DNA from: Paracidobacterium acidisoli
GTDB lineage: Bacteria > Acidobacteriota > Terriglobia > Terriglobales > Acidobacteriaceae
Assembly (NCBI RefSeq): GCF_003428625.2
Contig: NZ_QVQT02000004.1
Span: forward strand, 434,001 to 498,000
Direction of reading: 5' to 3'
Length of the DNA stretch: 64,000 bases
Part shown: positions 39,365 through 53,747 of the stretch, piece by piece
Layout of the letters: each line of letters starts with the position of its first letter
Position numbering within the stretch: the first letter of the stretch is position 1
Made by a program: the position numbers and the translations under genes
The notes under the pieces: generated by a model
What the model saw: only the letters and a program-made list of their open reading frames with translations
Databases searched by the model: none
Told to the model about the DNA's origin: nothing

Positions 39365-39420
39365 AGAGTGTGGAAAGCATGGAAAGCCATAAAACCGGCT
39401 TTCCACCCTTCCCACACTCT
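39365..39420. repeat. Long inverted repeat upstream of virB2
   Basis: 24-bp arms (39365-39388 and 39397-39420) match at 21 positions around an 8-nt loop. A second, perfect 8-bp inverted repeat, GAAATCCC/GGGATTTC, follows at 39424-39442, and GTGGAAA/TTCCCAC-like words recur through 39361-39455. The interval 39240-39657 holds no gene. Possible roles are an operator array for the transfer operon, an oriT, or an attenuator. Confidence 0.75.
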
Positions 39421-39657
39421 TTGGAAATCCCGTTGGGATTTCACACATTCCCACCGCTTTCGACGGCGGTTCATATCTTTGATAAGACCGAACACTTACA
39501 CAACAGCCAACCGCAACGGCTGACAAATCGGCTTCTCCTGTCAGGAAATACCGACGAAAACGATTCCCGTCGCAGGTCCAATTTCCGACCTACCTTCACA
39601 TTCAGCGCCCCGCCGAAATGCTTCGTCAGGCAGCCATTTCACAAAGGAGAACTGTTT

Positions 39658-39987
39658 ATGAAGGTGCGTTATCGCCTCAAAATCCCTCGTATCCACCGGG
39701 CGCTTAAGCGTCCCCTCACCCTGCTTGCCCCGGCGCTTCTCGCGCTAACCGCGCTGCCTGTGTATGCCCAAAGCAGCAGCGATCCGTGGGACAACGCAGT
39801 GAATGTCCTGAAGACCGCTTTTACCGGAACCATCGCTACGGGATTGTCGCTGGTCGCCATTGTCGTCGGCGGCTTGATGTTCGCCTATGGCGAAGGCCAG
39901 AGCAAGAAAACCCTTGCTGGCATCGTGTTTGGCGTGGGTATGGCTATAGGCGCGGTGAATTTTATGAGCTGGCTGTTCCCAAGCTAG
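39658..39987 (+). CDS. virB2: VirB2/TrbC-like conjugative pilin
   Basis: 109 aa, major pilus subunit of the mating channel. The ATG at 39658 has AAAGGAGA 8 nt upstream. A long basic signal peptide (residues about 1-38) ends PVYAQ; the mature protein has two membrane helices, TIATGLSLVAIVVGGLMFAY and LAGIVFGVGMAIGAVNFMSW, with a short basic turn (GEGQSKKT) between them, the standard layout of VirB2 and TrbC. First gene of the transfer operon. Confidence 0.88.
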   Translation: MKVRYRLKIPRIHRALKRPLTLLAPALLALTALPVYAQSSSDPWDNAVNVLKTAFTGTIATGLSLVAIVVGGLMFAYGEGQSKKTLAGIVFGVGMAIGAVNFMSWLFPS

Positions 39988-40001
39988 AGAGGAGGTGATC
40001 C

Positions 40002-40316
40002 ATGTCTCAGTCAGCGGATAGCAGGGTGAGTCCGGTGTTCAAGGCCATGAACCGCCCGCTGACTGTCCTGGGAGCGGAGCGACGGTTGTTCTTCGTCGCT
40101 CTGATCTCGGGAGGTGCGATCTTCTCCCTTTTGCATTCTCTCATAGGCGGAATCGTCCTGTTCATCGTTGGCGTGGTGATCGCCCGGCGTGCCACCAAAT
40201 ACGACGTGGAGATTCTGCGCGTGCTTTTCAACTCCAGCAAATTTCGCCGACGCTACGACCCGATGAAATGGCAGGCCACAGAGATACGCATAACGAGGCG
40301 CGATGTTCAAGGTTGA
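40002..40316 (+). CDS. virB3: VirB3/TrbD-like inner-membrane component
   Basis: 104 aa with two adjacent membrane helices near residues 30-65 (RLFFVALISGGAIFSLLHSL and IGGIVLFIVGVVIA). Preceded by an almost ideal ribosome site, GGAGGTGATCC. Its position between the pilin and the VirB4 ATPase, and the 14-nt overlap with virB4, fit VirB3, which recruits VirB4 to the inner membrane. Confidence 0.85.
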   Translation: MSQSADSRVSPVFKAMNRPLTVLGAERRLFFVALISGGAIFSLLHSLIGGIVLFIVGVVIARRATKYDVEILRVLFNSSKFRRRYDPMKWQATEIRITRRDVQG

Positions 40317-42789
40317 GCACATCACGAAGGATTGGAAGGAGGCAGGCTCCCTCCAGGCACACATCAACCTGTACGGCTTTTGGGATGAGCATTGCTTTCT
40401 GACCAAGACCGGCGACATGGGCGCTGCTCTGCGTATCGGAGGCATCGACTACGAAAGCCTCGACCATGCCGGACGTGATTATGCGGTGAAGCGGCTGGAG
40501 GCAGCCTTCCGCTCCCTCGATGATAAGTGTCGCCTGTACCAGATTCTTTTCAAGCACAACCGGCCCGCGATACCACACGCCGAGTATGACAACCCTTTAG
40601 TACGTGCGGCTGTCGAGCAGCGTAGCGCCTTTCTTCAATCGAAGGCCGACCGGCTCTACAGCATTGAAATCTTCTGGATCGTCATGGTCGATGGCAACTA
40701 TGCCAAGACCGGCCTGCTCCATGCGCTGTCCCAGCTTACGAAATCTCCACGCGCAGGCATGAAGGAATTGAAATCGCTCTTTGCCGGTAAGCAGCAACGC
40801 ACGCTGCTGTATGAGCAGATCGAGCGTGACCGGCTGTTATTGCAGCAGAAGGTACAGAGTTTGAGTGGGCAGTTAAACGACCTTACTACGGTCGAACTGC
40901 TAGGGGCGGAGAAGACCTTCCGGCTTGTCCGGCGTCTCGTAAACTTCCGCCCCTCAAAGATCAACGACGCGCCCCTGTGCGGGGCACGCCATCTCGACTG
41001 GCAGGTATGCGACTCGGAGCTGGAGGCGCATCGCGGCCACCTGCGAATGGATGACGATTATCTCCGCGTCCTGACCCTGAAAGAGCTCCCCGGCGAAACG
41101 CGGCCCTTAATCCTCAATGGCCTGCTCGACATACCGGCGAACTTTCATGTCGTCACGGAGTGGCACCCCGTAGACAATGCGAAGGCCCGCAAGGAAATCG
41201 CCTCACGCCGCCGCCATCATCACAATTCCAAAACCAGCTTCGTATCGAACTTGCAGGACCGTGAGAATACTGGGAACCAGGACAACCTCGTAGACGACTC
41301 CAAAGCCGCCGCAGTCGCGGAACTCGGTAATGCCCTCACAGCGATGGGCATGGAGGGTAAGAGCTTCGGAGAGTTCACGCTTTCCGTCGTGGTCTACGAC
41401 CAGGACCGGGCAAAGGTTGAACGGGCTGTAGCCGAGTTTCAAAAGCTGTTCACGCAGCACGACGGCCTGCTCTATGAGGAACGCTACAACCTGCTCAATG
41501 CGTTCTTTGCGACGGTCCCAGGCAATCGCCAATTCAACCTTCGCAAACAGTGGGCGCTCAATTCCAACTACGCCGACTTGTCATTTCTCTTTACCGTCGA
41601 TACCGGCAAGCAATGGAATCCGCATCTCGAACGCGAGTATCTCGCTGTTCTCGAATCAATGCACGGCTCCCCGTATTACCTCAACATGCACTCGGGCGAC
41701 GTAGCCCACACGCTGATGCTTGGGGCAACCGGGGCTGGTAAGAGCTTCTGTGCATCAACCATCATTCAGTCCGCGCAGAAATATGAACCGCTGACGTTCA
41801 TCTTCGACCTCGGCGGAAGCTATGAAACGCTGACTCGCGCCTTCGGCGGATCGTATCTGAATGTCGGCCTGAAAAATCCCGGCTTCAGTATCAATCCGTT
41901 CTCCCTGGAGCCGACGCACGAGAACCTTAATTTTCTGTACCTGTTCCTGCGCGTGCTCATCGAGGCAGGCGGACGTTATGAGCTGACCACCGCCGATGAA
42001 AAGGCGCTCTACGCCGGGCTGGAACGTATCTATAAACTGCCCCGCGAGATTCGGACGTTGACCAACTTCGCGTCCATCCTCGGCCCGTTGGGAGAGCGGC
42101 TGCACCGCTGGACGCAGGCCGGGCAGTTCGGCTACCTCTTCGACAACGTAGAGGACACGCTGACGTTCTCACGCTTCCAGACATTCAACTTCGATGGCTG
42201 GAGTGATTACCCCGACATTCTGGAGCCGTTGTTGTTTTATGTCTTGCAGCGTGCATCGTCCGAGATCGAGAGGCCGGAAAACACCGGCATCTTCAAAATC
42301 TTCCTGATTGATGAGGCTTGGATCTTCCTTAAGAACCAGATTATCCGCGCATGGATCATCCGCGCAGAGCGGACGTGGCGCAAGAAGAATGGTGCGATGG
42401 TGCTGGCTACGCAGTCGGTCGTGGAGCTGGCAGCCTCCGACATGCTGCACGTCGTCAACGAGTCCTGCCCCACCAAGATATTTCTTGCCAATCCCAACAT
42501 CGACCGCAAGCTCTATTCCGAAGTCTTCCAGTTGAACGACACCCAGCTTGAGTTGCTGGAATCGCTAGTGCCCAAGCGTGAGCTGCTGCTGATACAGCCG
42601 GAAGGCACCAAAAAGCTGGTGCTCGAAGTCGATGCGCTTGGCTACTGGACGGCGACAAACAACGCCCGCGACAACCTCCGCAGACAGGATTACTTCAACC
42701 GCTTCGGCCCGGAGCAGGGACTTCTGCGCTTGGCCGAGGACTACCCCAACCCCACTAACCCAACACGCGATAACAAGGAGGCTGCATGA
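40303..42789 (+). CDS. virB4: VirB4/TrbE conjugative ATPase
   Basis: 828 aa cytoplasmic/inner-membrane ATPase that powers pilus assembly and substrate transfer. Walker A is GATGAGKS at residues 474-481 and Walker B is FLIDEAW with Asp670-Glu671. The N-terminal half (residues about 1-420) is the VirB4 membrane-association domain (CagE/TrbE type). Length is standard. The stop overlaps the virB9 ATG (ATGA). Confidence 0.95.
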   Translation: MFKVEHITKDWKEAGSLQAHINLYGFWDEHCFLTKTGDMGAALRIGGIDYESLDHAGRDYAVKRLEAAFRSLDDKCRLYQILFKHNRPAIPHAEYDNPLVRAAVEQRSAFLQSKADRLYSIEIFWIVMVDGNYAKTGLLHALSQLTKSPRAGMKELKSLFAGKQQRTLLYEQIERDRLLLQQKVQSLSGQLNDLTTVELLGAEKTFRLVRRLVNFRPSKINDAPLCGARHLDWQVCDSELEAHRGHLRMDDDYLRVLTLKELPGETRPLILNGLLDIPANFHVVTEWHPVDNAKARKEIASRRRHHHNSKTSFVSNLQDRENTGNQDNLVDDSKAAAVAELGNALTAMGMEGKSFGEFTLSVVVYDQDRAKVERAVAEFQKLFTQHDGLLYEERYNLLNAFFATVPGNRQFNLRKQWALNSNYADLSFLFTVDTGKQWNPHLEREYLAVLESMHGSPYYLNMHSGDVAHTLMLGATGAGKSFCASTIIQSAQKYEPLTFIFDLGGSYETLTRAFGGSYLNVGLKNPGFSINPFSLEPTHENLNFLYLFLRVLIEAGGRYELTTADEKALYAGLERIYKLPREIRTLTNFASILGPLGERLHRWTQAGQFGYLFDNVEDTLTFSRFQTFNFDGWSDYPDILEPLLFYVLQRASSEIERPENTGIFKIFLIDEAWIFLKNQIIRAWIIRAERTWRKKNGAMVLATQSVVELAASDMLHVVNESCPTKIFLANPNIDRKLYSEVFQLNDTQLELLESLVPKRELLLIQPEGTKKLVLEVDALGYWTATNNARDNLRRQDYFNRFGPEQGLLRLAEDYPNPTNPTRDNKEAA

Positions 42790-43538
42790 ACCGTTTCCCT
42801 ATCTTTCCTTTGGTGCTTGGCCTGGTTGCTACCGTTGCCCACGGTCAGCAATCGGCCCGCATCGTGAAGTACCACGCCAACGACATTGTGAGCATCCGCG
42901 CAAAGATGCGCTACACCACCCTGATTCAGTTGCCAGCCACCGAGAAGATTCTCGAAGTCGCTACCGGAGATAAAGATTTCTGGATCATCGACACGGTACA
43001 GAACTATTGCTTTTTGCACCCCGCCAAAGAAGGCATCCACTCCAACCTGAATCTCATTACCGACAAGGGCAGCGTGTACTCGTTCACGCTCAACGACGAT
43101 GAAAGCACCGATCCCGATCTAAAAGTCGTCATTGAGCCGTCAGACCCTTCTTCGCTCGCCGCCGCTAACGGCGTCAGCCACCTCGTGCCAGCCGGTGAGA
43201 TCGAAGTAGCCCGCGTCCAGATGCAGGCTGCTCAGACCCGCGCGGCGAATGCCGTAGAGCAGTTTCGCGCCGAGTACCCCGTAAAGGCGTTGAAGTTCGA
43301 CTACACCTTCCACAATGAAAGCCCCTTCGATGTGGCGGCCATCTATCACGATGACAAGTTCACCTATATCAAGTCGTCGGCCTCGGAGAAGTTCTCCATC
43401 TATGAACTGAAAGACAAAAAGCCCGACCTCATTACCTTCCAGTTGCAGGACGGCACCTACATCATTCCCACGGTGGTCGATAAGGGATACCTCCAGATCG
43501 GCAAGCACAAGCTCGACTTTGAGCGGAAAGCGCAGTAG
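42786..43538 (+). CDS. virB9: VirB9/TrbG-like channel protein
   Basis: 250 aa, exported (signal MNRFPIFPLVLGLVATVAHG). The N-terminal beta domain (ARIVKYHANDIVSIRAKMRY, TLIQLPATEKILEVATGD) and the C-terminal OMC-binding part (FDYTFHNESPFDVAAIYHDD, FTYIK) match the VirB9/TrbG/CagX family. It contributes to the outer-membrane core ring with VirB10. No VirB7 lipoprotein gene accompanies it, as in many Trb-type systems. Confidence 0.88.
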   Translation: MNRFPIFPLVLGLVATVAHGQQSARIVKYHANDIVSIRAKMRYTTLIQLPATEKILEVATGDKDFWIIDTVQNYCFLHPAKEGIHSNLNLITDKGSVYSFTLNDDESTDPDLKVVIEPSDPSSLAAANGVSHLVPAGEIEVARVQMQAAQTRAANAVEQFRAEYPVKALKFDYTFHNESPFDVAAIYHDDKFTYIKSSASEKFSIYELKDKKPDLITFQLQDGTYIIPTVVDKGYLQIGKHKLDFERKAQ

Positions 43539-43541
43539 GTG

Positions 43542-44789
43542 ATGCCGATGGCAGACGAAAAACAGATCAACACAGTACCGGAGTCGCAGGCTGCACCGCC
43601 CTCGCCTGAGAACGCCTCCGGCCTCCGCGACAAGCGCATCCGGCCAGAGGGTGTCGTGCCGAAACAGGCACAGGGCTATGTCGTCGCCGGGCTTGCTGTG
43701 CTCATTCTTATGGCGGTCATGTTCTCAAAGCAACATGCCAGGCCAGCGGCGAAGGACGCCGCGCCTGCTTCCGTTGCTGTTTCCACTGATATGAACCAGC
43801 GGAAGATTCAGGAACTGGAGCAGGATTTGAGCGCCGACCAGCGCCAGAGCCAGCAACAGGCGATGGCGCAGAGAGCGGGTACGATAGCCTCGCCCGCAGG
43901 AATAGCGACCACCACCAATCCGGCGCAACCCGGCGTTGCGGCCCCAGTAGCGCCCATGCCACCGGCCACCACGGAGCCGCCCCGCGATCCCATCGCAGAT
44001 GCAGAGAAGGCGATGGCCTTCAAAGCCAGGTTTGCCTCCAATCTTGTCTCTGCACAAGAGAGTGCCCCACGCTCACCGGAAAGCACTGCCGAGAACACCC
44101 CGGCGCGACCTGCAAACGCGTCGCAGGCCCAGGCAGCGCAATCTGCCGCTGTTGCTACGGATACCAAGCGCGCGCCGGAGATCAATCTTAACGCCGCGCA
44201 CGGCCAGCCCTATGCGCTCTTCGAGGGCACCACCATCGACACCGTTCTCGTGGACCGCCTCGATGGAGAGTATGCCGGGGCTGTCAAAGTGATGGTGTCG
44301 AATCCGGTCTACAGCGAGGATCGTCAGCATGTACTCATCCCCGCAGGGACATTCATTCTCGGCGACACGCAGAAGGTATCGAGCTTAGGCCAGAAGCGCC
44401 TTGCGCTCACGTTTCACCGGATGCTGATGCCGGATAAGTATTCCGTGGACCTCGACAAGTTCCAGGGGCTTGACCAGGCCGGAGAAACCGGCGTCAAAGG
44501 CAAAATCAACAACCACTACATGGAGATCTTCGGAGCAAGCATTGCTCTCGGCGTCATCGCCGGGGCTGCCGAGGCCACCACCAACAGCGGCTACAACGAA
44601 ACCGGCTCCGATGCCTACCGTCAGGGCATCGCATCAAGCCTCTCCATGTCAGGCGCAAATGTGCTCGACCGCTTCATCAACATCATGCCCACTCACACGA
44701 TCCTCGAGGGGCACCGCATCAAGGTCTACATCACCCAGGACATGCTGCTGCCCGCATACGAAAACCACGACATGCCGAAGGTGATGTGA
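43542..44789 (+). CDS. virB10: VirB10/TrbI-like channel protein
   Basis: 415 aa (ATG 43542; ATG 43548 or GTG 43539 are possible). A cytoplasmic tail is followed by one membrane helix (GYVVAGLAVLILMAVMF, about residues 46-62), a long Ala/Pro/Gln-rich periplasmic linker and a C-terminal beta-barrel domain (INLNAAHGQPYALFEGTTID, VLIPAGTFILGDTQ, GVKGKINNHYMEIFGASI). This spans both membranes and makes the outer-membrane pore in VirB10 proteins. Confidence 0.9.
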   Translation: MPMADEKQINTVPESQAAPPSPENASGLRDKRIRPEGVVPKQAQGYVVAGLAVLILMAVMFSKQHARPAAKDAAPASVAVSTDMNQRKIQELEQDLSADQRQSQQQAMAQRAGTIASPAGIATTTNPAQPGVAAPVAPMPPATTEPPRDPIADAEKAMAFKARFASNLVSAQESAPRSPESTAENTPARPANASQAQAAQSAAVATDTKRAPEINLNAAHGQPYALFEGTTIDTVLVDRLDGEYAGAVKVMVSNPVYSEDRQHVLIPAGTFILGDTQKVSSLGQKRLALTFHRMLMPDKYSVDLDKFQGLDQAGETGVKGKINNHYMEIFGASIALGVIAGAAEATTNSGYNETGSDAYRQGIASSLSMSGANVLDRFINIMPTHTILEGHRIKVYITQDMLLPAYENHDMPKVM

Positions 44790-44830
44790 TTCTCCACTCC
44801 ACTTTAACCACGTTCCACGGAGGTATCACC

Positions 44831-45736
44831 ATGAAGTCCGCAAAGCTATATAGCCTTATTCTCCTCACCCTTACCGTACTCGCGCCTGCCGCGCACGCAC
44901 AGTTCGGCTCCGGCATCGTTTATGACCCCACGCAGAGCGCCCATGCTCTCCAGCAGATCGAGCAGGGCGAATCGCAGTTGCAGAAATGGGCGACCGAACT
45001 CAACAACTGGCAGCAGCACCTTTTGAAAGAGGCGCAGATTTATACGACTGCCGAGCAGACCCGGACGCAGATCGTCACCATGTACAACCTCGCTTACCAA
45101 ATGGCGACCATGCCGCAGAACCTCGAAGCCCGGTACAAAGCGGATTGGGCGCAGTGGCAGAGCCTCGCGGCACCGCCAAACACTTACGGCAACACCTCTC
45201 CGCTGGTAAATGCCCTTAACTTTGGCGGCATTCCCCAGGCGCAGCAGGGTTACAACAGCGCCTATGTTCAGCCTCAAAGCTATCCATCGGGTAACTACTC
45301 CTCTCTCGACGCCCGCACCCAAGCCACAGTAGCCAATCAGTATGCAACCTCGGAGCTGGCGCAAAGCACCACCACCAACACGCTCGCCACTCTCGGCACC
45401 ATCCGCACAGACGCGCAGGCGTTCGCCTCGAAACTCTCCAACCTCGAATCGGACACCTTTTCGACTGACCCATCTCAGCAGAGCACAAATGCACTGCTTG
45501 GCAAGATCAACTCGGCCACGCTGCTTCAGATTCATTCACAGCAGGACACCAATCAGTTGCTCATGGCTGAAATCCAGCAGCAACTCATCGCGCAGAAGCA
45601 ACAGATTGACGCGCAGAACCGCGCCATCAACAACGCCATCTACTTCCAGCAGAACTTTCCCAACACCATGCAGAACGTCTCCAGCGGCGTAAGCAATTCC
45701 ATGCACGCGATCTCCCTCTCGACCACAGGACAGTGA
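44831..45736 (+). CDS. virB5: VirB5/TrbJ-like exported protein
   Basis: 301 aa; ATG at 44831 with CGGAGGTATCACC upstream; signal peptide ends AAHAQ. The mature part begins FGSGIVYDPTQSAHALQQ, the conserved start of TrbJ/VirB5 proteins, and is otherwise helical and Gln/Ala-rich with coiled-coil tendency at the end (IQQQLIAQKQQIDAQNRAIN). It is probably a minor pilus-tip component. Confidence 0.82.
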   Translation: MKSAKLYSLILLTLTVLAPAAHAQFGSGIVYDPTQSAHALQQIEQGESQLQKWATELNNWQQHLLKEAQIYTTAEQTRTQIVTMYNLAYQMATMPQNLEARYKADWAQWQSLAAPPNTYGNTSPLVNALNFGGIPQAQQGYNSAYVQPQSYPSGNYSSLDARTQATVANQYATSELAQSTTTNTLATLGTIRTDAQAFASKLSNLESDTFSTDPSQQSTNALLGKINSATLLQIHSQQDTNQLLMAEIQQQLIAQKQQIDAQNRAINNAIYFQQNFPNTMQNVSSGVSNSMHAISLSTTGQ

Positions 45737-45739
45737 GCC

Positions 45740-46561
45740 ATGCAACAGAATCCCTTTACCTTTATCGGGCAGGCAATCACGCAACTGCTCTCCTCACATA
45801 GCGCCGCGCTTCAGGCCACGGGATTAGACATATTCCGTGGCCTCGCGGTGATCCTCATCGTCTGGTTTGGCGTGAAGTCCGCCCTCTCTGCTTCGCAGGG
45901 AGGGGGCGGCTTTCACTTCGCCAAGTTCGCGGACCTCATTCTGATGATTGCCTTCGGCCTGGGGATGCTGACCTATTACTCCACCCCCATTCCCGGCACC
46001 AGCTACAGCTTCAGCGACCTCATCACCAAAGAGGGCCTGAACATCTCCGCGCAAATCGAGTCCGACCAGACGCAACAAATCGCCGACGCCATCACCAACG
46101 AGGAACAGCAACTCGGCGTGCCTCCCGGCAGCTTCAATATCCTCGAAGACCTTACCTATTTATTGATAGCCGTCATCCTCGCTGCAATGGAGGCCGTGGC
46201 CTTCGCAGTTATTGCGTATGGCTATGTCGCCTCTGCCGTCTGCGTCCTGATAGGCCCGCTCTTCATTCCGTGGTTCATTGTGCCGAAGATGGACTGGCTG
46301 TTCTGGGGTTGGCTGAAAGCCTTTATCGGCTTTTCGTTCTACCAGGTCATCGCCGCGGCGTTCATCTTTGTGTTCTCCAAAGTCCTCACGTCGATGTTTC
46401 AGGTCATCGGCAACATCACCATCTCGAATGCCCTGGCCGTGCTGCCCGCGCTGCTTATCACCCTGTTTGTCTGCATCTATGGCTTGGTCAAGATACCGGA
46501 GCTTACTAGCGCAATCTTGAGTGGACGCACCGGCACCTGGGTCAACCCAATGGGGAACTAA
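45740..46561 (+). CDS. virB6: VirB6/TrbL-like polytopic membrane protein
   Basis: 273 aa with about six membrane helices, including IFRGLAVILIVWFGVKSAL and ALAVLPALLITLFVCIYGLV. The hydrophilic loop between the first and later helices and the position between virB5 and virB8 are as in TrbL/VirB6, the inner-membrane channel part. Begins 3 bp after the virB5 stop. Confidence 0.85.
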   Translation: MQQNPFTFIGQAITQLLSSHSAALQATGLDIFRGLAVILIVWFGVKSALSASQGGGGFHFAKFADLILMIAFGLGMLTYYSTPIPGTSYSFSDLITKEGLNISAQIESDQTQQIADAITNEEQQLGVPPGSFNILEDLTYLLIAVILAAMEAVAFAVIAYGYVASAVCVLIGPLFIPWFIVPKMDWLFWGWLKAFIGFSFYQVIAAAFIFVFSKVLTSMFQVIGNITISNALAVLPALLITLFVCIYGLVKIPELTSAILSGRTGTWVNPMGN

Positions 46562-46563
46562 TC

Positions 46564-47244
46564 ATGGCCGACAAAAACACACTTCCGACCACCGATGCCG
46601 GGCAGAGGTTCCTGGAGCTGTACGCGGAGCCAGTCGTTACCAACACCTATCTCAAGGTTGCCATCCTTGTGCTCTCCGTCGTCACGCTTGCATTGATCGT
46701 GCTCTTTTATCGCGCCCAGACCGCTGCCTTGCGGCTCAAGCCGCTCGTGATCCCGGTCTACGACATCGGACGTGCAGAGGCGGTGAAATACGACGACTTC
46801 TCCAAGATTCCCATCGAGCGCGTCAGTAAATACTATTTGGCGCGATGGGCACAGCTTTATTACGGACGGAATCATGCCACGTTGCAGCGGGATTTTACCG
46901 AATCCCTGAATTTCTTCTCTGACCCCCTGGGGAATGCAACGCTGGCCCGCATCGCTAAAGCAAAGACGCTTGAGACCTTCCTGCTCGATCCCAGCGCCCC
47001 GAATGTAGACATCGAGATTAAGGCCGTCGTTCTCGACGACACACGCCAGGCCCCGTACCGCGCCCACATCGAGTTTGAAAAGGTCTTCTATTCCCTGGGC
47101 GATCAGCAGGAGCAGAGCCGGGAACGCTGGACCGCAAACGTCGTCTATGGATTCCGCGATGAGGTTCCAAACGCCATGCTGCTGACGAATCCTCTCGGCG
47201 TCGTCATCAGCTATGTCCACGAAGATCAGGCGTTCGGTAACTAA
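46564..47244 (+). CDS. virB8: VirB8/TrbF-like inner-membrane protein
   Basis: 226 aa bitopic protein: one helix at about residues 32-54 (VAILVLSVVTLALIVLFY) and a periplasmic NTF2-like domain (YYLARWAQLYYGRNHATLQR, then FYSLGDQQEQSRERWTANVV and VNPLGVVISYVHED-type end). VirB8 scaffolds channel assembly. Starts 2 bp after virB6. Confidence 0.85.
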   Translation: MADKNTLPTTDAGQRFLELYAEPVVTNTYLKVAILVLSVVTLALIVLFYRAQTAALRLKPLVIPVYDIGRAEAVKYDDFSKIPIERVSKYYLARWAQLYYGRNHATLQRDFTESLNFFSDPLGNATLARIAKAKTLETFLLDPSAPNVDIEIKAVVLDDTRQAPYRAHIEFEKVFYSLGDQQEQSRERWTANVVYGFRDEVPNAMLLTNPLGVVISYVHEDQAFGN

Positions 47245-47247
47245 CGC

Positions 47248-47901
47248 ATGAAACCGTACTACGAACACGCTGGCATCACGATCTATCAAGGTGACTGCCG
47301 CGAGGTTCTGTCGGAGCTTCCGCCAATAGACGCAGTTATCAGCGATCCGCCTTACGGTATCCACTTCGACACGGACTACCGGAAGTTCACATCGGGGTTA
47401 GATGTGAAGCGAAACGTCCATAAGCCTGTGTACGGCGACGATGAACCGTTCGACCCGTCACCCTGGCTCCGATTTCGCTCCGTCGTGTTATGGGGTGCCA
47501 ACATCTATTCCTCTCGTTTGCCGCGAGGTAGCTGGCTGGTATGGGATAAGCGCTTCTCCAACGGGAGCGCGTTTCTAGCCGATGCCGAGGCAGCATGGAT
47601 GAACTCGGGATATGGAATCCATTTGCTGTCCGTCACGCAGCAGGGATTCATTCGACCGGAGCCTATTGAACACCCGACGCAGAAACCCGTTGCAGTCATG
47701 CGATGGTGCATCGAGAAGGCCCGGCCCAAAGGCATCATCCTCGATCCCTATATGGGCAGCGGAACCACGCTGGTAGCCGCGAAGCACCTGGGCCACACGG
47801 CCATCGGTATTGAGATCGAAGAAGAATACTGCGAGATCGCGGCCCGGCGGCTTAGCCAGGAGGTTCTCCCCTTTGATCGTTCAAAGCAGAAAGGACACTG
47901 A
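47248..47901 (+). CDS. DNA methyltransferase (N6-adenine/N4-cytosine type)
   Basis: 217 aa orphan methyltransferase inside the transfer operon, 3 bp after virB8. Catalytic motif IV is DPPYG (Asp33-Pro-Pro-Tyr36), suggesting adenine-N6 methylation, and the SAM-binding motif I follows later as DPYMGSGTTLVAAKHLGH (from Asp166); this order is the beta class. EHPTQKPVAVMRW precedes it, as in many type II-like enzymes. No restriction partner is adjacent, so protection of transferred DNA from host restriction, or marking of origin sites, is likelier than restriction-modification. The stop and next ATG share one base (TGATG). Confidence 0.9.
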   Translation: MKPYYEHAGITIYQGDCREVLSELPPIDAVISDPPYGIHFDTDYRKFTSGLDVKRNVHKPVYGDDEPFDPSPWLRFRSVVLWGANIYSSRLPRGSWLVWDKRFSNGSAFLADAEAAWMNSGYGIHLLSVTQQGFIRPEPIEHPTQKPVAVMRWCIEKARPKGIILDPYMGSGTTLVAAKHLGHTAIGIEIEEEYCEIAARRLSQEVLPFDRSKQKGH

Positions 47902-48209
47902 TGCTTGCTAACGCTGTCTTCGTCGCCACGCTTATCTTTCTCGCGCTTGGGTTCGGACTGATGCACGAACTGCATTTCCTCGTGCCCTGGCGCAACCTGA
48001 TTCTTCATCGCTACTGGCAACCTATCGCCGTCTATTGCGCCTTGCTGTTCGTGAACATCCTGGGACTCACCATCTGGATCGAGCGCAAGTTTTTCTTGCG
48101 CGATGCTGGCCGAAAACTTACCCATCTCGATCAGGAGATTCATAGCGGCCACAGCGCACTTTCAGAAGAAATCCTCTCGCAGTTCGGGAACGACGAGGAG
48201 CAGCTATGA
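47901..48209 (+). CDS. Small membrane protein of the transfer operon
   Basis: 102 aa with two membrane helices (NAVFVATLIFLALGFGLMHE and PIAVYCALLFVNILGLTIWI) and a charged C-terminal tail (RKLTHLDQEIHSGHSALSEE). No family recognised; no lipobox, so not an obvious VirB7. Joined to both neighbours by overlaps (TGATG before, ATGA after). Confidence 0.72.
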   Translation: MLANAVFVATLIFLALGFGLMHELHFLVPWRNLILHRYWQPIAVYCALLFVNILGLTIWIERKFFLRDAGRKLTHLDQEIHSGHSALSEEILSQFGNDEEQL

Positions 48210-48385
48210 GCAACCGTGACAGCGAACACTTTGAAGACTCTCACGACATGATCGAACGTATTCGCAAACTGCGGGAGGCGGCAGAGAAAAAGATGAATGC
48301 CTTTGGCGATCCCGCTGAGTATGACGTGAGAATCATCCGTGGCCGGAAGCGTGAGCCAGAGGCCCACGCAGAGGACGGCCAATGA
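48206..48385 (+). CDS. 59-aa charged protein
   Basis: Begins MSNRDSEHFEDSHDMIERIR and ends in a basic then acidic tail (RGRKREPEAHAEDGQ). A helix at residues about 12-32 is predicted from the pattern. Supported by ATGA overlaps at both ends, in frame with the chain of overlapping genes. Function unknown; it may be an accessory of the following DNA-binding-like proteins. Confidence 0.65.
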   Translation: MSNRDSEHFEDSHDMIERIRKLREAAEKKMNAFGDPAEYDVRIIRGRKREPEAHAEDGQ

Positions 48386-49395
48386 GACTGAATCTGCCCC
48401 ACGAGCCGGAGATTTCACGGCGGCGCGATCAGGAGCCTTCAGCACCGCAAACAACCCGCGTGTCCGTACCGGAGTCGCCCCTTGAAAGCAGGCTGCCGCG
48501 CCTGCGCCAGTCGTCTGCCGAGCGCACGGCCCATGCTGTACCGCCGCCACGTCGGGAACGCCGTCGAGAGCCGCAAGTAACGGAGCGCAGCCGGGAGCCG
48601 GAGCACCGCCCCCGCCGCACGCGGGAAGGCGTTGCCGTGGAGGTCCGTGGCACGCGCCTGCGCCCGCAGGAACAGCAGTTGCTTCGAGAGACAGGCCGCT
48701 TCCGCGTCCTCAATCTCAAGGATGTAGAACGCACCATCTATAACGGCGACAGACGTGCTTTACAGACAGACCTTGAATATCTGCGGGAGCGTGGCCTCGT
48801 ATCGGTCGATTCGGTTGCTCCACGCAACGATGGGCACTGGCTCCCGCAGAAACGAATTGAAGTCGTAACCCTCACTAAAGAGGGGGAACGGCTTGCCCAT
48901 GAAACCAGCGGCTATGCCCCGGAGCAAAAGCTCTATCACGGTTTGGTGAAACCGCGTGAAGCCGAGCACGATACGCAGATTTACCGCGCCTATCTGAAAG
49001 AGTCCGAGCGTATCGAGAAAGCTGGGGGCAGCAACCTCCGAGTGGAGCTTGACTTCGAGTTGAAGTCGAAAATCCAGAAGGCCATTCGTGCCGCCAGAAA
49101 AGCCGACCCGCAGCGCGACATGGGCGAGATCAAACGCGAGGTGGCCGAGCAGTACGAGCTGCCATACGTCCGCAACAAGATCGAGATTCCCGATGCGCGG
49201 ATTCACTACGACATGGACCAGGGTTCGCGTACCGGGTTCTCCGATGTTGAAGTCGTGACGGCGGCCTACCGGCCCGGACACATGAAGGCCAAGAGTCAGG
49301 CGGGCTTTCGCATGTATGCGTCTGCTTCGGATCGTGCCCGCCTCGCCACCATTGAGGACGAGCAGCACATGCTCGATTGGGTGATGGACCTATGA
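48382..49395 (+). CDS. Winged-helix protein, replication-relaxation-like
   Basis: 337 aa. The first 85 residues are Arg/Pro-rich and likely disordered and DNA-contacting. Residues about 92-180 read as a winged helix (RPQEQQLLRETGRFRVLNLK, LEYLRERGLVSVDS, VVTLTKEGERLA), resembling the start of the Replic_Relax family. The C-terminal part has a helix-rich segment (LRVELDFELKSKIQKAIRAA) and then PDARIHYDMD, FSDVEVVTAAY and GHMKAKSQAGFRMY; this spacing of acidic residues and Lys is loosely nuclease-like. No HxH relaxase motif is visible. Given its place near a candidate oriT and virD4, a relaxosome role is inferred. Confidence 0.6.
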   Translation: MRLNLPHEPEISRRRDQEPSAPQTTRVSVPESPLESRLPRLRQSSAERTAHAVPPPRRERRREPQVTERSREPEHRPRRTREGVAVEVRGTRLRPQEQQLLRETGRFRVLNLKDVERTIYNGDRRALQTDLEYLRERGLVSVDSVAPRNDGHWLPQKRIEVVTLTKEGERLAHETSGYAPEQKLYHGLVKPREAEHDTQIYRAYLKESERIEKAGGSNLRVELDFELKSKIQKAIRAARKADPQRDMGEIKREVAEQYELPYVRNKIEIPDARIHYDMDQGSRTGFSDVEVVTAAYRPGHMKAKSQAGFRMYASASDRARLATIEDEQHMLDWVMDL

Positions 49396-50438
49396 GTTAT
49401 GACGGTATCGACAATCTGACCGGCTGCGGATATTCGGAGCGCGAGGCTGCCTTCCTATATATAGTGGCCGTTCATTCAGGCTATTTTCTGCGGCGGCAGT
49501 TCAATCAGTTCGTCTCCCGCGAGCGCGGAGCCATCGCAACGTACTTCCTGCGTAGAGCCACGGAGCTGAATCACATCACAGCGTTGCCATGCGCGGAAGG
49601 CCGCCGTATCTATCACCTCTCCGACCGGCAGGTTTATAGGCTAGTTGGACTCGATAGCTCCCAGGGCCGTCGCATCAAGTCCTCCGGCGAGATTCTTCGC
49701 AGGTTGATGACGCTTGACTATGTACTCCGGCATCTTGACCGGGAACGATTTGTAGAGACGCAGGAGGCAAAGCGCCAACTGTTTGCGCAACTCCGGGTAC
49801 GGCCAGAGGCGATTCAAGACGCGGAATCCTTCCGGCACCTCGTGCCGTTGTCACTTGTAGAGAGTCCAGAGTCGCTGGCTGTTCATCTAGTTTTCCTTGA
49901 TGAAGGGCAGCGTTCATCTTCTCTGTTTGTACGTTTTCTTAGTACCCACGCCCAACTTTTACGGAGCCTGCCCGTCGCCGAGATTATCTATGTCTCGACC
50001 GTAACGACGCAGTTCATGCAGGCGCAGCGTCTTTTCGAGAGGCACACGCCCCTCCGCAATACCATGACTCCCGCGTGTCCGCGTGGAGTGGAGCACCTTG
50101 TCGCATGGCTGGAGGTCCGCTACAGGTTCCATGAAAAGGGCGGCTCCATCTCGCCATCCGATCACCGGCTGTTACTCGAAGGGGACGGCGTGTACAACGC
50201 TCCCGTTCACAAGGGACTCATCGCATCGTGGAAGAACGGCGCGATGAACGCCGACAAGGTGCGTGAACTCTTCCGTCGTGAGCAGCATCGTGTCTCGTTT
50301 GTGACGGAGCTGCTGGACACCGATTATCCCCGTTCCATAAACCCTGCACCGGGCTATAACGCGGGCTATGACGATTCGCAGAACTCCCTGTTCGACAAGG
50401 ACATAGAGCCGGAGAAGCAGGAAATACAAAACGGCTGA
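49392..50438 (+). CDS. Unknown transfer-region protein with HTH-like start
   Basis: 348 aa from the ATG at 49392 (ATGA overlap with the gene before). Residues about 10-75 could fold as a helix-turn-helix (GYSEREAAFLYIVAVHSGYF, LRRQFNQFVSRERGAIATYF, YHLSDRQVYRLVG). The rest is not recognised; motifs such as LMTLDYVLRHLDRERF and YRFHEKGGSISPSDHRLL are probably structural. No HUH or tyrosine-relaxase signature. Its stop codon lies within the first arm of a 17-bp inverted repeat. A partner of the preceding protein is likely. Confidence 0.6.
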   Translation: MSYDGIDNLTGCGYSEREAAFLYIVAVHSGYFLRRQFNQFVSRERGAIATYFLRRATELNHITALPCAEGRRIYHLSDRQVYRLVGLDSSQGRRIKSSGEILRRLMTLDYVLRHLDRERFVETQEAKRQLFAQLRVRPEAIQDAESFRHLVPLSLVESPESLAVHLVFLDEGQRSSSLFVRFLSTHAQLLRSLPVAEIIYVSTVTTQFMQAQRLFERHTPLRNTMTPACPRGVEHLVAWLEVRYRFHEKGGSISPSDHRLLLEGDGVYNAPVHKGLIASWKNGAMNADKVRELFRREQHRVSFVTELLDTDYPRSINPAPGYNAGYDDSQNSLFDKDIEPEKQEIQNG

Positions 50439-50495
50439 GGGCGGGAACGACCCGCCCTTTCGGGCTTTCGCTGTCGCTGGTCGTTCCCGCCCTCA
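50436..50495. repeat. 17-bp perfect inverted repeat (candidate oriT or terminator)
   Basis: Arms 50436-50452 and 50479-50495 are perfectly complementary, separated by 26 nt; within the loop GCCC/GGGC makes a further short stem. It starts at the stop codon of the 348-aa protein gene and lies 75 bp before the ribbon-helix-helix-like gene. No T-run follows the right arm on the plus strand, which weakens a simple terminator reading. Confidence 0.8.
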
Positions 50496-50569
50496 GCAGA
50501 AGCAAAGACAACGGCAGTACGGCGAACGGACTGCGCTAGGACCAACACAGTACAGGAGGAGTACCAGGC

Positions 50570-50794
50570 ATGAGCAAACTACGAATCGAAAAGGGAGCAA
50601 GCCGGGTCCGGCGAGTGGCGCTCAAGACGACCATCGACGGCACGGTTGCGGACGACGTGGAGCTGATGTGCCGGTGGTCGGAGAACGACACCAGCTACAT
50701 CGTGAATCATCTTCTGCGCTTCGCTCTGAGCCAGAGCGAGGACTTCCAGCAGTACAGGCAATCGCTGCCATCGACCACGGAGGATGAAAAGTGA
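50570..50794 (+). CDS. Ribbon-helix-helix-like protein
   Basis: 74 aa. A basic N-terminus and beta-like segment (SRVRRVALKTTIDGTVADDV) precede two helices (ELMCRWSENDTSY, IVNHLLRFALSQ), the layout of RHH DNA-binding proteins such as TraY or MobC-like relaxosome accessories. ACAGGAGGAGTACC lies ahead of the ATG. Overlaps virD4 by GTGA. The nearby inverted repeat is the obvious candidate target. Confidence 0.6.
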   Translation: MSKLRIEKGASRVRRVALKTTIDGTVADDVELMCRWSENDTSYIVNHLLRFALSQSEDFQQYRQSLPSTTEDEK

Positions 50795-52830
50795 ACGCTG
50801 TGCGTGCGTCTCTCCAGAGTCTTACCCGTATCGTCATCGCATACCGTCTGGTGCTCTCGGTTGGCGCGGCAGCCTCGGCCAGCATCATGCTTCATGCGCT
50901 GTGGCCGTGGCCCGCGAGTGTTCCGTTACTGCACTACTTCGCGTTGGAGCGGCCTCGCCTTTATATAGTCGTGGCGCACGGCTACGATGTGTTCCTGTTC
51001 ACCACGCCGTTTCTCTTCTGCTCCATGCTGTTCTCGCTCCTGTACGTCCATGTATACCGGCGCGAGACGGAGGCCAGCGCCGGAACGCTTCCCCCGTTTC
51101 CCAATCCCTTGTCCCGGCGAAACCTTGCATTGGTGCTTGGCGAGGTTCACCAGCAGTTGCAGCCGGAACCATCTCCGGCTCCACGTTGGCTGGAGATTCC
51201 AGAGCGCGGCCTGTACACCGGCATCGCCGTCATTGGCTCGATTGGTTCGGGTAAAACGCAAGGCATCGTAATACCAGCCATGCGCCAGCTTTTCGCGTAC
51301 TGTGCGGCGGACCCGGCGCGGCGACTCTCCGGCATCGTTCTGGAGGTGAAGGGCGACCTTTGCCGTCAGCTTCGGCAGATTCTTGAGGGCTGCGGCAGGA
51401 CGGAGGATTACATCGAAGTGTCCCTCGATGGCCCTATGCGCTATAACCCATTGAACAACTCGCTTGACCCTTACGCGCAGGCATTTAACATCGCCTCCGT
51501 CATCACCGCGATTTGGGGGAAAGGCAAAGAACCGTTCTGGCAGCAGAGCTATACCGATCTTGTACGGTACGTCATCATTCTTCATCGCGTCCGTGATGGG
51601 TACGTCACGATGGTTGATATTTTCCGCACCGTAGTCAGCGCCGGGCAGCTTGAGGCCATGCTTATTGCCGTTGGAACGCGCTTCAGTTCATCGGTCTACG
51701 TGGGAGTGAGCGCGGAACAGTACCTGCATCATGCCGAGTTGCTGGCTGCCTTCGGTTTTGAAATCGACCGGCGAATGAATGAATACATCGCTCCCTGGAG
51801 CGAGGCCCTGGAGAGCGTATTGATAGAGCAGACGGATGCCGAGGTACGGATCTACAGCCGCAAACCGTTCGACCCGGCGCAGAGAGACCGCTGGCAGAGC
51901 GTCCACTATTGGTATTGGGAACATTGGCGGTTTTTTCGTGCCGAGGTCAAAACCAGCATCATCCAGGGAATCGCCGTTTTCCTCTCGTTGTTTGAGACGG
52001 ACCCCGACGTGCGGCGGGTGTTCTGCCCACCCAAAGAACTGTACGATGGCAAGCCGTGTGCCGCCGACCCGCACGGTCGCGTTCTCTCCCCGTTCGATGA
52101 GTTGATCGAATCGGGTGCAGTCGTCGGCCTCAACTTTCCCGTTGCCCTGAATCCGGCACTTGCCAAAACGATCGGCACGCTCATGAAGGTGGACTATCAG
52201 CGTGCCGTCCTGCTCCGTATTCCAAAGATGGACCGGGAACCACAGAAGCACTTCCGACCGACCGTGTTTGTTTGCGATGAGTACCAGAACTTCGCTACGG
52301 TCGGCGGCGACAATCCGAGTGGTGACGAACGCTGGCTGAGTCTCTCCCGGCAGCCCAGGTGCATTCCGATTGTCGCCACGCAGAGCGTCTCGTCGCTCAA
52401 AGAGGCGTTACCCAATGAAGGTGTGAAGACCTTGCTGCAGGCTTTTCGCACAAAGGTTCTTCTCACCACGTCTGACCCGGACACGGCCCGGTACGCCTCC
52501 GAGATATGCGGCAAAGCAGACCGCACGCGCATCAGCTATACCGTTTCGGAGTCCAGCAGCAACGCGAATGTTGGCTGGCTCAGTGGCCGCACGTCTTCCA
52601 GCAAAGGGTCCGTCTCTGCCTCGAAGCAGTACCAGCGACATAAGGAACCGCTGTTTGAAGAAAAGGTGTTCTTTGAGCTGAAGAACGCGCAGGCCATCGT
52701 CGCGGCCTTCAATGGCGTAAGTCCCTTGCCGCCGACCTATTGCTACCTCAAGCCGGACTTCTTGCCCACGAATATGACGTGGTTCGAGCAGGAGCGCATC
52801 GGCTTCGATCCAGGGAGGATACTCGCGTGA
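50791..52830 (+). CDS. virD4: VirD4/TraG type IV coupling protein
   Basis: 679 aa ATPase that links the relaxosome to the channel. Start GTG at 50791 with CGGAGGATGAAAA upstream. Two N-terminal membrane helices (residues about 18-80), then the RecA-like motor: Walker A GSIGSGKT at 149-156 and Walker B VFVCDEYQNF with Asp496-Glu497. YASEICGKADRTRISY and a C-terminal Ser-rich part follow. Its presence shows the element transfers DNA rather than only protein. The stop overlaps the virB11 start (GTGA). Confidence 0.93.
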   Translation: MNAVRASLQSLTRIVIAYRLVLSVGAAASASIMLHALWPWPASVPLLHYFALERPRLYIVVAHGYDVFLFTTPFLFCSMLFSLLYVHVYRRETEASAGTLPPFPNPLSRRNLALVLGEVHQQLQPEPSPAPRWLEIPERGLYTGIAVIGSIGSGKTQGIVIPAMRQLFAYCAADPARRLSGIVLEVKGDLCRQLRQILEGCGRTEDYIEVSLDGPMRYNPLNNSLDPYAQAFNIASVITAIWGKGKEPFWQQSYTDLVRYVIILHRVRDGYVTMVDIFRTVVSAGQLEAMLIAVGTRFSSSVYVGVSAEQYLHHAELLAAFGFEIDRRMNEYIAPWSEALESVLIEQTDAEVRIYSRKPFDPAQRDRWQSVHYWYWEHWRFFRAEVKTSIIQGIAVFLSLFETDPDVRRVFCPPKELYDGKPCAADPHGRVLSPFDELIESGAVVGLNFPVALNPALAKTIGTLMKVDYQRAVLLRIPKMDREPQKHFRPTVFVCDEYQNFATVGGDNPSGDERWLSLSRQPRCIPIVATQSVSSLKEALPNEGVKTLLQAFRTKVLLTTSDPDTARYASEICGKADRTRISYTVSESSSNANVGWLSGRTSSSKGSVSASKQYQRHKEPLFEEKVFFELKNAQAIVAAFNGVSPLPPTYCYLKPDFLPTNMTWFEQERIGFDPGRILA

Positions 52831-53747
52831 GCTTTGAAATCATCCTGCCGTTTCTGAAGCCAATCGAACACCTGCTCATGAGTGAGACAGTCAGCGAGAT
52901 CATGGTGAACTCCGACTCGTCTGTTTGGATGGAAGAGAACGGCCAGAAACAGTTGCTTCCCGACGTGCGGTTCGAGGACGGCGCATTGAACGCCGGTCTG
53001 GAGGTGATTGCGAATCGTTTTGGCAAAAGGCTCGATGCAGACTCACCCATTTTGAACCTCCGTCTGCCTGATGGCAGCCGGCTGGCTGCCATCATCCCTC
53101 CAGTAGTGAATCCACATCCCCTTCTTACGATAAGGCGATTCACCTCACGAAATTTTGGTATCGGCGACCTTATCTCGCGGGGCATGTTGACGCCGGAGCT
53201 GGCGGATACTTTGACGGAGAGCGTCCGCCGTGGCGACAACATTTTGATTGCCGGTGGAACGGGATGTGGCAAGACCACACTCGCTAATGTGATCGCTGAT
53301 TTCATACCCGAAGACGACCGCATCCTCGTCATCGAGGACACCGCAGAATTGCATATTCGTAAACCGCACGTTGTCTCGTCGGAGTCACAGACCGACACCC
53401 ACCACGGCACCGTGACCTTTGACGACCTGTTACGGGCTGTTCTCCGTCATCGGCCCGACCGGATCATCGTTGGCGAGGTACGCGGGGCCGAGGCCCGCAC
53501 CTTACTGGACGCTATGAACACCGGCCATCGGGGAACTCTGGCGACGATTCACGCCAGCAGCGCCGAGGAAGCAATTCATCGACTGGCGACCTTAGCGATG
53601 CGTGCCAGTGGTGGCCTCAGCCTGGCCGCAGTTGTTGACGAGGTTGAGCGTTGCCTGGACCTTGTTGTTTATATCTCTCGTCGTAACGGTATGCGTTCAG
53701 TAGAGAACCTCATGCAGGTAAGCCGCAGCGGAAAGTCTCCCGACTAG
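52827..53747 (+). CDS. virB11: VirB11/TrbB hexameric ATPase
   Basis: 306 aa from the GTG at 52827, placed at the end of virD4. Contains [19 protein letters not shown] near the N-terminus, Walker A GGTGCGKT at 143-150, the Asp box VIEDTAEL, and [20 protein letters not shown], a family hallmark. VirB11 switches the machine between pilus assembly and DNA transfer. Unlike in trb operons it stands last, not first. Confidence 0.94.

Follow-up and report, generated by a model that had tools for sequence, protein, structure and literature searches.

The closest described relatives of the system reported here are the MOBC relaxases, such as TraX of pAD1 and MobC of CloDF13. They combine a winged helix with a restriction-endonuclease-like domain, carry their motifs in the order H..D, E, PD, E, K, and occur together with a VirD4-type coupling protein and integrases. 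TcpK and TcpM of pCW3 offer a second parallel, in which a winged-helix protein takes part in transfer beside a relaxase that is not of the HUH type. In PMC12857230, TcpM is listed as tyrosine-recombinase-like, while the MOBC enzymes are called restriction-endonuclease-like, with no covalent DNA intermediate observed, and TraX is stated to carry a winged helix and reported to bind five direct repeats. PMC5357655 recognises proteins of family PF13814 (Replic_Relax) as MobC relaxases. Here, we compare with these systems a locus from a 64,000-nt stretch of Paracidobacterium acidisoli DNA (C10:434001-498000 of the 5.0 Mb genome G000, hereafter the window), in which an integrative conjugative element (ICE) at tRNA-Phe encodes homologues of VirB2-6, VirB8-11 and VirD4.

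Why some type IV secretion systems (T4SSs) have no recognisable relaxase is a long-standing question. As explanations, Guglielmini et al. 2011 (PMC3158045) give artefact, unknown relaxases and protein secretion, the last being favoured for many systems in proteobacteria. The original prediction for the window described such a case: a coupling protein and a full channel, no relaxase, and four unrecognised genes followed by an inverted repeat that could form an undescribed relaxosome. We find that p337, a 337-aa protein (48382..49395, + strand), is probably the relaxase and would act at the repeat 3' of the neighbouring gene, which encodes the 348-aa protein p348 (49392..50438, +). Together they likely represent a deeply divergent, two-subunit, MOBC-like relaxosome. 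A literature search, with most subscription papers outside it, returned no description of the p337-p348 pair, the hairpin or a two-subunit MOBC-like relaxase.

The p337 protein compared with MOBC relaxases

A scan of genome contigs for p337 gave 120 pattern matches, among which 91 relatives were found and 80 loci kept. Nearly all loci are labelled Acidobacteriota, with single records from Nitrospirae, Chloroflexi and Betaproteobacteria, and where the genomes are named, the closest relatives come from Acidobacteriaceae and other Acidobacteriota. Matches are present in 13 of 150 genomes, including that of P. acidisoli itself, which has three copies; the match in G045 is a 45-residue piece only. 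Among viral contigs, 55 pattern matches contained no relative of p337.

The p337 alignment consists of the window copy and 56 of the 80 loci, with near-duplicates and cut or broken copies left out. The AlphaFold2 model obtained with these 57 sequences (pLDDT 85.9) places a winged helix at about residues 86-175 and a PD-(D/E)XK-type nuclease domain at about 191-313, in line with the winged helix and loosely nuclease-like C-terminus that had been proposed from the sequence; a pure transcription factor, the other outcome considered there, is not what the model predicts. After the winged helix come a helix (191-213), a strand (217-223), two helices, two strands (272-277 and 284-291), a helix (298-306) and a last strand (310-313), giving the overall predicted order alpha-beta-(alpha alpha)-beta-beta-alpha-beta. 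Over residues of about 77-182, the modelled winged helix resembles solved structures with a VIA Z of up to 11.5.

Thirteen residues are identical in 57/57 sequences of the alignment: E193, H196, D197, Y201, R220, D224, E226, K228, D271, E290, T293, Y296 and K304. When the residue counts were repeated over all loci (80 for p337, 78 for p348), E193, H196, D197, D224, E226 and K228 were found in the window and every locus (81/81), D271 in 80/81, and E290 and K304 in 78/81; L074, L097 and L111, which account for the exceptions, are broken or cut copies. The conserved acidic and lysine residues are putatively catalytic.

For the comparison with known relaxases we used a Replic_Relax profile of 16 sequences, including that of the pAD1-like plasmid pTEF1; this protein, which we take to be TraX, also matches PF13814, and the plasmid is MOB-typed as MOBC. 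The CloDF13 mobC gene was considered as a further comparator and left unused, as no mobC is annotated in its record and no clean reading frame was found in it. Using hhalign, the p337 profile aligns to the Replic_Relax profile over residues 91-200 with a score of 46.2, a probability of 75.6 and an E-value of 2.4e-5, compared with decoy scores of 14.3 for the best of 20 shuffled profiles and 12.3 for the reversed one. In a relaxed alignment, the p337 motifs IPDARI and DVEVVT and residue K304 fall on the PD, E-x-D-x-G-T and K of the family. A Foldseek search against the BFVD viral models gave 588 matches, three of them with E <= 0.001 and spanning 282-317 alignment columns. One of the three is gp146 of phage G (E 2.3e-6, prob 1.00, 282 columns), itself a Replic_Relax protein (PF13814 at 4.1e-25).

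As the predicted fold and the order of the motifs are those of Replic_Relax/MOBC, p337 is not of a wholly unknown kind. The earlier suggestion of a relaxosome is well supported, both by the conservation of the locus and by one satellite-like element described below. Unlike the MOBC relaxases, p337 stays below the Pfam cut-off and is encoded with a second, degenerate paralogue; because of the PF13814 cut-off we use the term MOBC-like and refrain from classing p337 as MOBC. Its helical stretch between the first and second strand is also longer, by eye, than would be expected from the TraX sequence. In comparison with TcpM, p337 is nuclease-like and p348 has a nuclease-fold domain of its own.

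The probable partner protein p348 and the candidate oriT

The p348 gene is found in 78 of the 80 p337 loci. The two others are a locus that stops inside p337 (L097) and one with a shortened p337 ending 396 nt before the contig end (L111). In 74 of the 78 loci the stop of p337 and the start of p348 lie within 60 nt of each other, with a median overlap of 4; L074, L092, L106 and L108 fall outside this spacing. In L106, considered as a mobilisable element, a frameshift fuses p337 and p348 and no repeat was found, and this locus is probably a decayed relic.

The AlphaFold2 model of p348 (pLDDT 88.7) shows a predicted winged helix and a second half with a putative nuclease fold. The p348 profile aligns to Replic_Relax over 202 columns with a probability of 33.6, a score of 37.0 and an E-value of 4.4e-4, while shuffled decoys score 12.7 or less and the reversed one 18.2; the direct comparison of the p337 and p348 profiles gives no signal by itself. 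In the alignment to Replic_Relax the glutamate of the family falls on F168 and the lysine on F182. Of the 79 sequences from the window and the 78 loci, 75 have F or Y at position 168, and none has a lysine at position 182 (F 36, H 20, Y 18, W 1, V 1, gap 3). The p348 alignment consists of the window copy and 54 of the 78 loci, selected as for p337. These replacements suggest a catalytically dead subunit, and p348 is probably a DNA-binding partner of p337.

In fold searches the second half of p348 matches SdaI, Kpn2I, FokI and Cap4, all weakly (E 0.046 or worse), and unrelated rows rank equally. With SdaI (2ixs), residues 97-312 share a weak fold match (VIA Z 6.9, rmsd 4.4, 121 residues aligned), and with a Z under 8 this may reflect just a common arrangement. 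Unlike SdaI, p348 occurs in a conjugation context, has no fixed partner methyltransferase and is without the active-site residues of the family. These restriction enzymes, together with the nearby DNA methyltransferase gene (47248-47901), are what would favour p337 as a defence or restriction nuclease next to an unrelated repeat. We consider this very improbable: p337, p348 and the repeat stay together across many loci; a methyltransferase match was seen in the loci of five relatives, lying upstream of VirB2 in four of them and 3 kb before the 102-aa gene in the fifth (L027), and in L025 the 102-aa gene directly follows VirB8. The methyltransferase of the window is treated as cargo.

The strong inverted repeat expected at 50.4 kb was located at 50434..50497 (no strand), 3' of p348. 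Its 22-nt arms are 95% complementary and 20 nt apart, and as single-stranded DNA it folds with -30.2 kcal/mol (z = -6.5 against 200 shuffles). Among the 73 loci with at least 400 nt readable downstream of p348, 68 have a hairpin scoring >= 12 at this site, compared with 0/73 inside p348 and 0/69 further downstream, and it is thus beyond chance. In the 61 of 79 loci that have an anchor, there is hardly any variation in the core GGGNGGGARCGACC and its complement, through proteins that are about 30% identical; TraX, for comparison, is reported to bind five direct repeats. Outside the core the arms covary, with several pair types per position. In the arm counts, the 18 of 79 loci without the anchor were left out, and pairing over positions 0-15 served to select the sequences; at positions 16 and 17, which are free of this selection bias, the paired fractions are 0.51 and 0.56 against 0.18-0.31 in slid controls, and the signal fades beyond. 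In five distant loci (L076, L077, L079, L083, L095) an outer, second inverted repeat surrounds the hairpin by eye, e.g. GTCACCGTGG...CCACGGTGAC in L076.

The repeat is present at all three p337 copies of the P. acidisoli genome, and the exact core pattern occurs twice in its 5.0 Mb, both times at p337 loci. The hairpin pattern is found in nine of the 150 genomes, seven of them p337-bearing, while its reversed control is found in none (0/150); in G009 it lies on another contig, next to a piece of p348 and VirD4. Three places with the pattern in 2.9 million viral contigs, without any match to p337, p348, RHH, T4SS or integrase in the DNA available around them, were discarded as chance or unrelated.

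The hairpin is probably the origin of transfer (oriT). Its place after a stop codon, its good folding and the covariation of its arms, as in RNA stems, would also suit a transcription terminator or an RNA element, a reading that we find improbable: no terminator-like site was found in 50300-50800 and no Rfam match at the repeat, the core of the arms is nearly fixed despite the divergence of the encoded proteins, and an element that has no p348 carries the repeat together with an integrase and a gene of the RHH family.

Downstream of the candidate oriT lies a gene for a 74-aa ribbon-helix-helix (RHH)-like protein (50570..50794, +), a probable relaxosome accessory. Its family is found in 66 of the 78 gaps downstream of p348 and in the element with the orphan repeat. 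The RHH label is based on a sequence pattern and on weak matches of two distant members to the model of the BrnA antitoxin, which stay below its cut-off (E 0.0012 and 0.011).

Other relaxases and elements without p337

A scan of 20 genes from 37.1 to 55.3 kb, with some short open reading frames (ORFs) outside it, shows no match to a relaxase family, as had been predicted; the part of that prediction that we revise is the conclusion that the module has no relaxase, a role probably filled by p337. The original prediction also pointed beyond 64 kb, and ten further genes, scanned from 55.5 kb to the second copy of the attachment-site repeat, gave no relaxase match either. For the HUH families PF08751 (TrwC), PF03432 (Relaxase) and PF03389 (MobA_MobL), there is no match among these 30 scanned genes, which were compared with all of Pfam, and a canonical relaxase elsewhere in the element, which would have spoken against a new system, did not appear among them.

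None of the 13 genomes with p337 has PF03432 or PF03389, and PF08751 occurs in five, always off the p337 contigs; eight of the 13 are without all three families (MOBV, MOBH, MOBT and MOBB were not searched genome-wide). The P. acidisoli genome has a TrwC-type (MOBF) relaxase on another contig (G000:C1:152063), presumably belonging to another element.

Such an enzyme, acting in trans, would be needed if p337 and p348 were winged-helix regulators that control the coupling-protein operon through the repeat. The position of the repeat in the gap before the RHH-like gene and virD4 would fit regulation, as would the matches of p337 to solved structures, which are mostly MarR/PadR-type winged helices. 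We regard this explanation as unlikely. The C-terminal acidic and lysine residues that are invariant in the alignment would be needless for a pure regulator, eight of the 13 p337-bearing genomes have no match to PF03432, PF08751 or PF03389, the three families searched genome-wide, and an orphan repeat is found in an integrative element without p337, p348 or a T4SS match.

This element lies in genome G148 (L156:6779-15733, G148:C62). It is 8.9 kb long, located between 48-bp direct repeats at two tRNA-Pro genes, and about 0.6 kb separate its repeat from a tyrosine integrase. Between these two lies a small gene that is a member of the RHH family seen in the ICEs (E 8.5e-18, compared with 0.18 for the best of 200 shuffles). 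In the 58 kb around the repeat no p348 was found, and the p337 profile gave only two short, weak winged-helix matches (best E 5.8e-4); the element has no T4SS match. Since it keeps just the integrase, the RHH gene and the repeat of the set, we read it as a candidate oriT-only satellite, a single case. A further 40-bp piece of the tRNA-Pro 5' part is located about 3.7 kb upstream of it.

Other loci combine the module with different neighbours. In L075 (2333-4481) and L089 (5206-6964), p337, p348 and the repeat are followed by small genes, a tyrosine integrase and a tRNA (Arg and Thr, respectively), with no VirD4 or VirB11 on the integrase side; they are possible mobilisable elements. Their other ends were not found, as the contig starts at p337 (L075) or 2.7 kb before it (L089), and a T4SS there is possible. 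In L059 (808-12178) the module, with a tyrosine integrase, seems to be combined with another channel, a distant T4SS (VirB4 27% identical) on the opposite strand. L038 (4125-18991) has the module without a T4SS match within 10 kb; its neighbours include response-regulator, RES-domain and possible CAP12-TIR proteins, perhaps defence cargo.

Several observations weigh against p337 as a MOBC-like relaxase that works with p348 at the hairpin. The window p337 does not match PF13814 even at E up to 10, and only five of the 57 relatives match, the best with 21.8 bits against the 25.3-bit cut-off. Significant sequence similarity to Replic_Relax is confined to the winged helix and the following helix, and profile searches with just the nuclease half yield nothing (hhalign E 0.13; no hmmsearch match). 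The TM-scores between p337 and gp146 are modest, 0.40 and 0.47, with an rmsd of 6.6. The fold search against the PDB matched the winged helix alone; winged-helix hits filled the list, and the nuclease domain was therefore barely probed. At the DNA level, five of the 73 loci are without the hairpin (L074, L088, L103, L106, L107), and the core pair, found in 60/73 by a looser test, is absent as defined in 13/73, several of which carry a variant core. No p337 helper was found in the G148 genome. Finally, a plasmid-like contig of G138 with RepA_C (L157, L159; G138:C105) has a T4SS, p348, the hairpin, VirD4 and VirB11, and p337 was found neither on this contig nor in the genome. Of all the observations, this one speaks most strongly against an obligatory p337-p348 pair; loss or decay, or another nuclease, would explain it. 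Sequence searches of the PDB added nothing useful, with four winged-helix regulators for the p337 profile (A3, best E 0.18) and one unrelated chain for that of p348 (A4, E 0.92).

The element and a possible transfer mechanism

The channel genes VirB2, B3, B4, B9, B10, VirB5-like, B6 and B8 (39370..47244, +) have the same order in related loci, and the VirB5-like gene is assigned by position only. They lie on the strand opposite a large serine recombinase (37099..38967, -; PF07508, PF00239, PF13408), the ORF of which runs with its 3' end into tRNA-Phe (37116-37190). After VirB8 follow the methyltransferase, the four unrecognised genes, the repeat, the RHH-like gene, the VirD4-type coupling protein (50791..52830, +; PF12696 3e-13, PF10412, PF02534) and the VirB11 ATPase (52740..53747, +, start uncertain; PF00437 6e-51, TIGR02788 below cut-off). 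The coupling protein and channel of the original prediction are thus in place as VirD4, VirB11 and eight further VirB genes; VirB1 and VirB7 were not identified in the element.

The chain of four unrecognised genes was also recovered as predicted, none of them reaching a Pfam or NCBIfam cut-off. The first two encode a 102-aa membrane-type protein 5' of p337 (47901..48209, +) and a 59-aa protein (48206..48385, +; 36/80 loci). No role is assigned to them; they often precede p337, yet no tie to DNA processing was found. Among the 80 loci, many of them cut by contig ends, the 102-aa gene is present in 62, VirD4 in 59, VirB8 in 56 and VirB11 in 53.

The 16 nt at the 3' end of tRNA-Phe (37175..37190) form an attachment-site repeat with an exact second copy at C10:502715-502730, which adjoins another serine recombinase and another, similar element. 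Because of this recurrence, the element of the window may be about 31.5 kb long and part of a tandem array, with an end at about 68.7 kb in window coordinates. Two related ICEs are thus apparently in tandem at tRNA-Phe, at window 37175-37190 and at L017:4625-6466 (C10:502625-504466); the right end of the second was not found, and a third p337 element lies on contig C13 of the same genome. The ten genes scanned up to the second repeat comprise a sigma factor, an outer-membrane barrel, a BNR-repeat protein, a thioredoxin, a phosphoesterase, a PRTase, a ParB-like protein, a D12 methylase and two without family. The PRTase-CE, ParB-like and D12 methylase genes beside the second integrase (L017:1825-4537) are possible defence or maintenance cargo.

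We suggest the following mechanism. The winged helices of p337 and p348 would recognise the two arms of the repeat, and the nuclease domain of p337 would nick one strand using D271, E290 and K304, assisted by E193, E226 or K228. The RHH-like protein would bend or bridge the site, and VirD4 would hand the nicked strand to the T4SS. Nicking, the position of nic, formation of the complex and the direction of transfer are what we infer here from genes, residues and models. With p348 as a dead paralogue, the relaxase would consist of two subunits. The complete proposal is a hetero-oligomeric relaxase in which a MOBC-like catalytic subunit and its dead paralogue jointly read the arms of a hairpin oriT, widespread in ICEs of Acidobacteriota and exploited by oriT-only integrative satellites; we advance it tentatively, with a little less than even confidence.

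For a group of T4SSs without a recognisable relaxase, the locus offers candidates for the relaxase, for an oriT of ~64 bp and, in one case, for a minimal satellite. If the proposal is true, Acidobacteriota ICEs with this relaxase escape relaxase scans based on Pfam. With profiles of p337, p348 and the hairpin, such elements in soil bacteria could be recognised as self-transmissible or mobilisable. A pair split into a catalytic and a dead subunit would also bear on how MOBC enzymes hold the cut strand.

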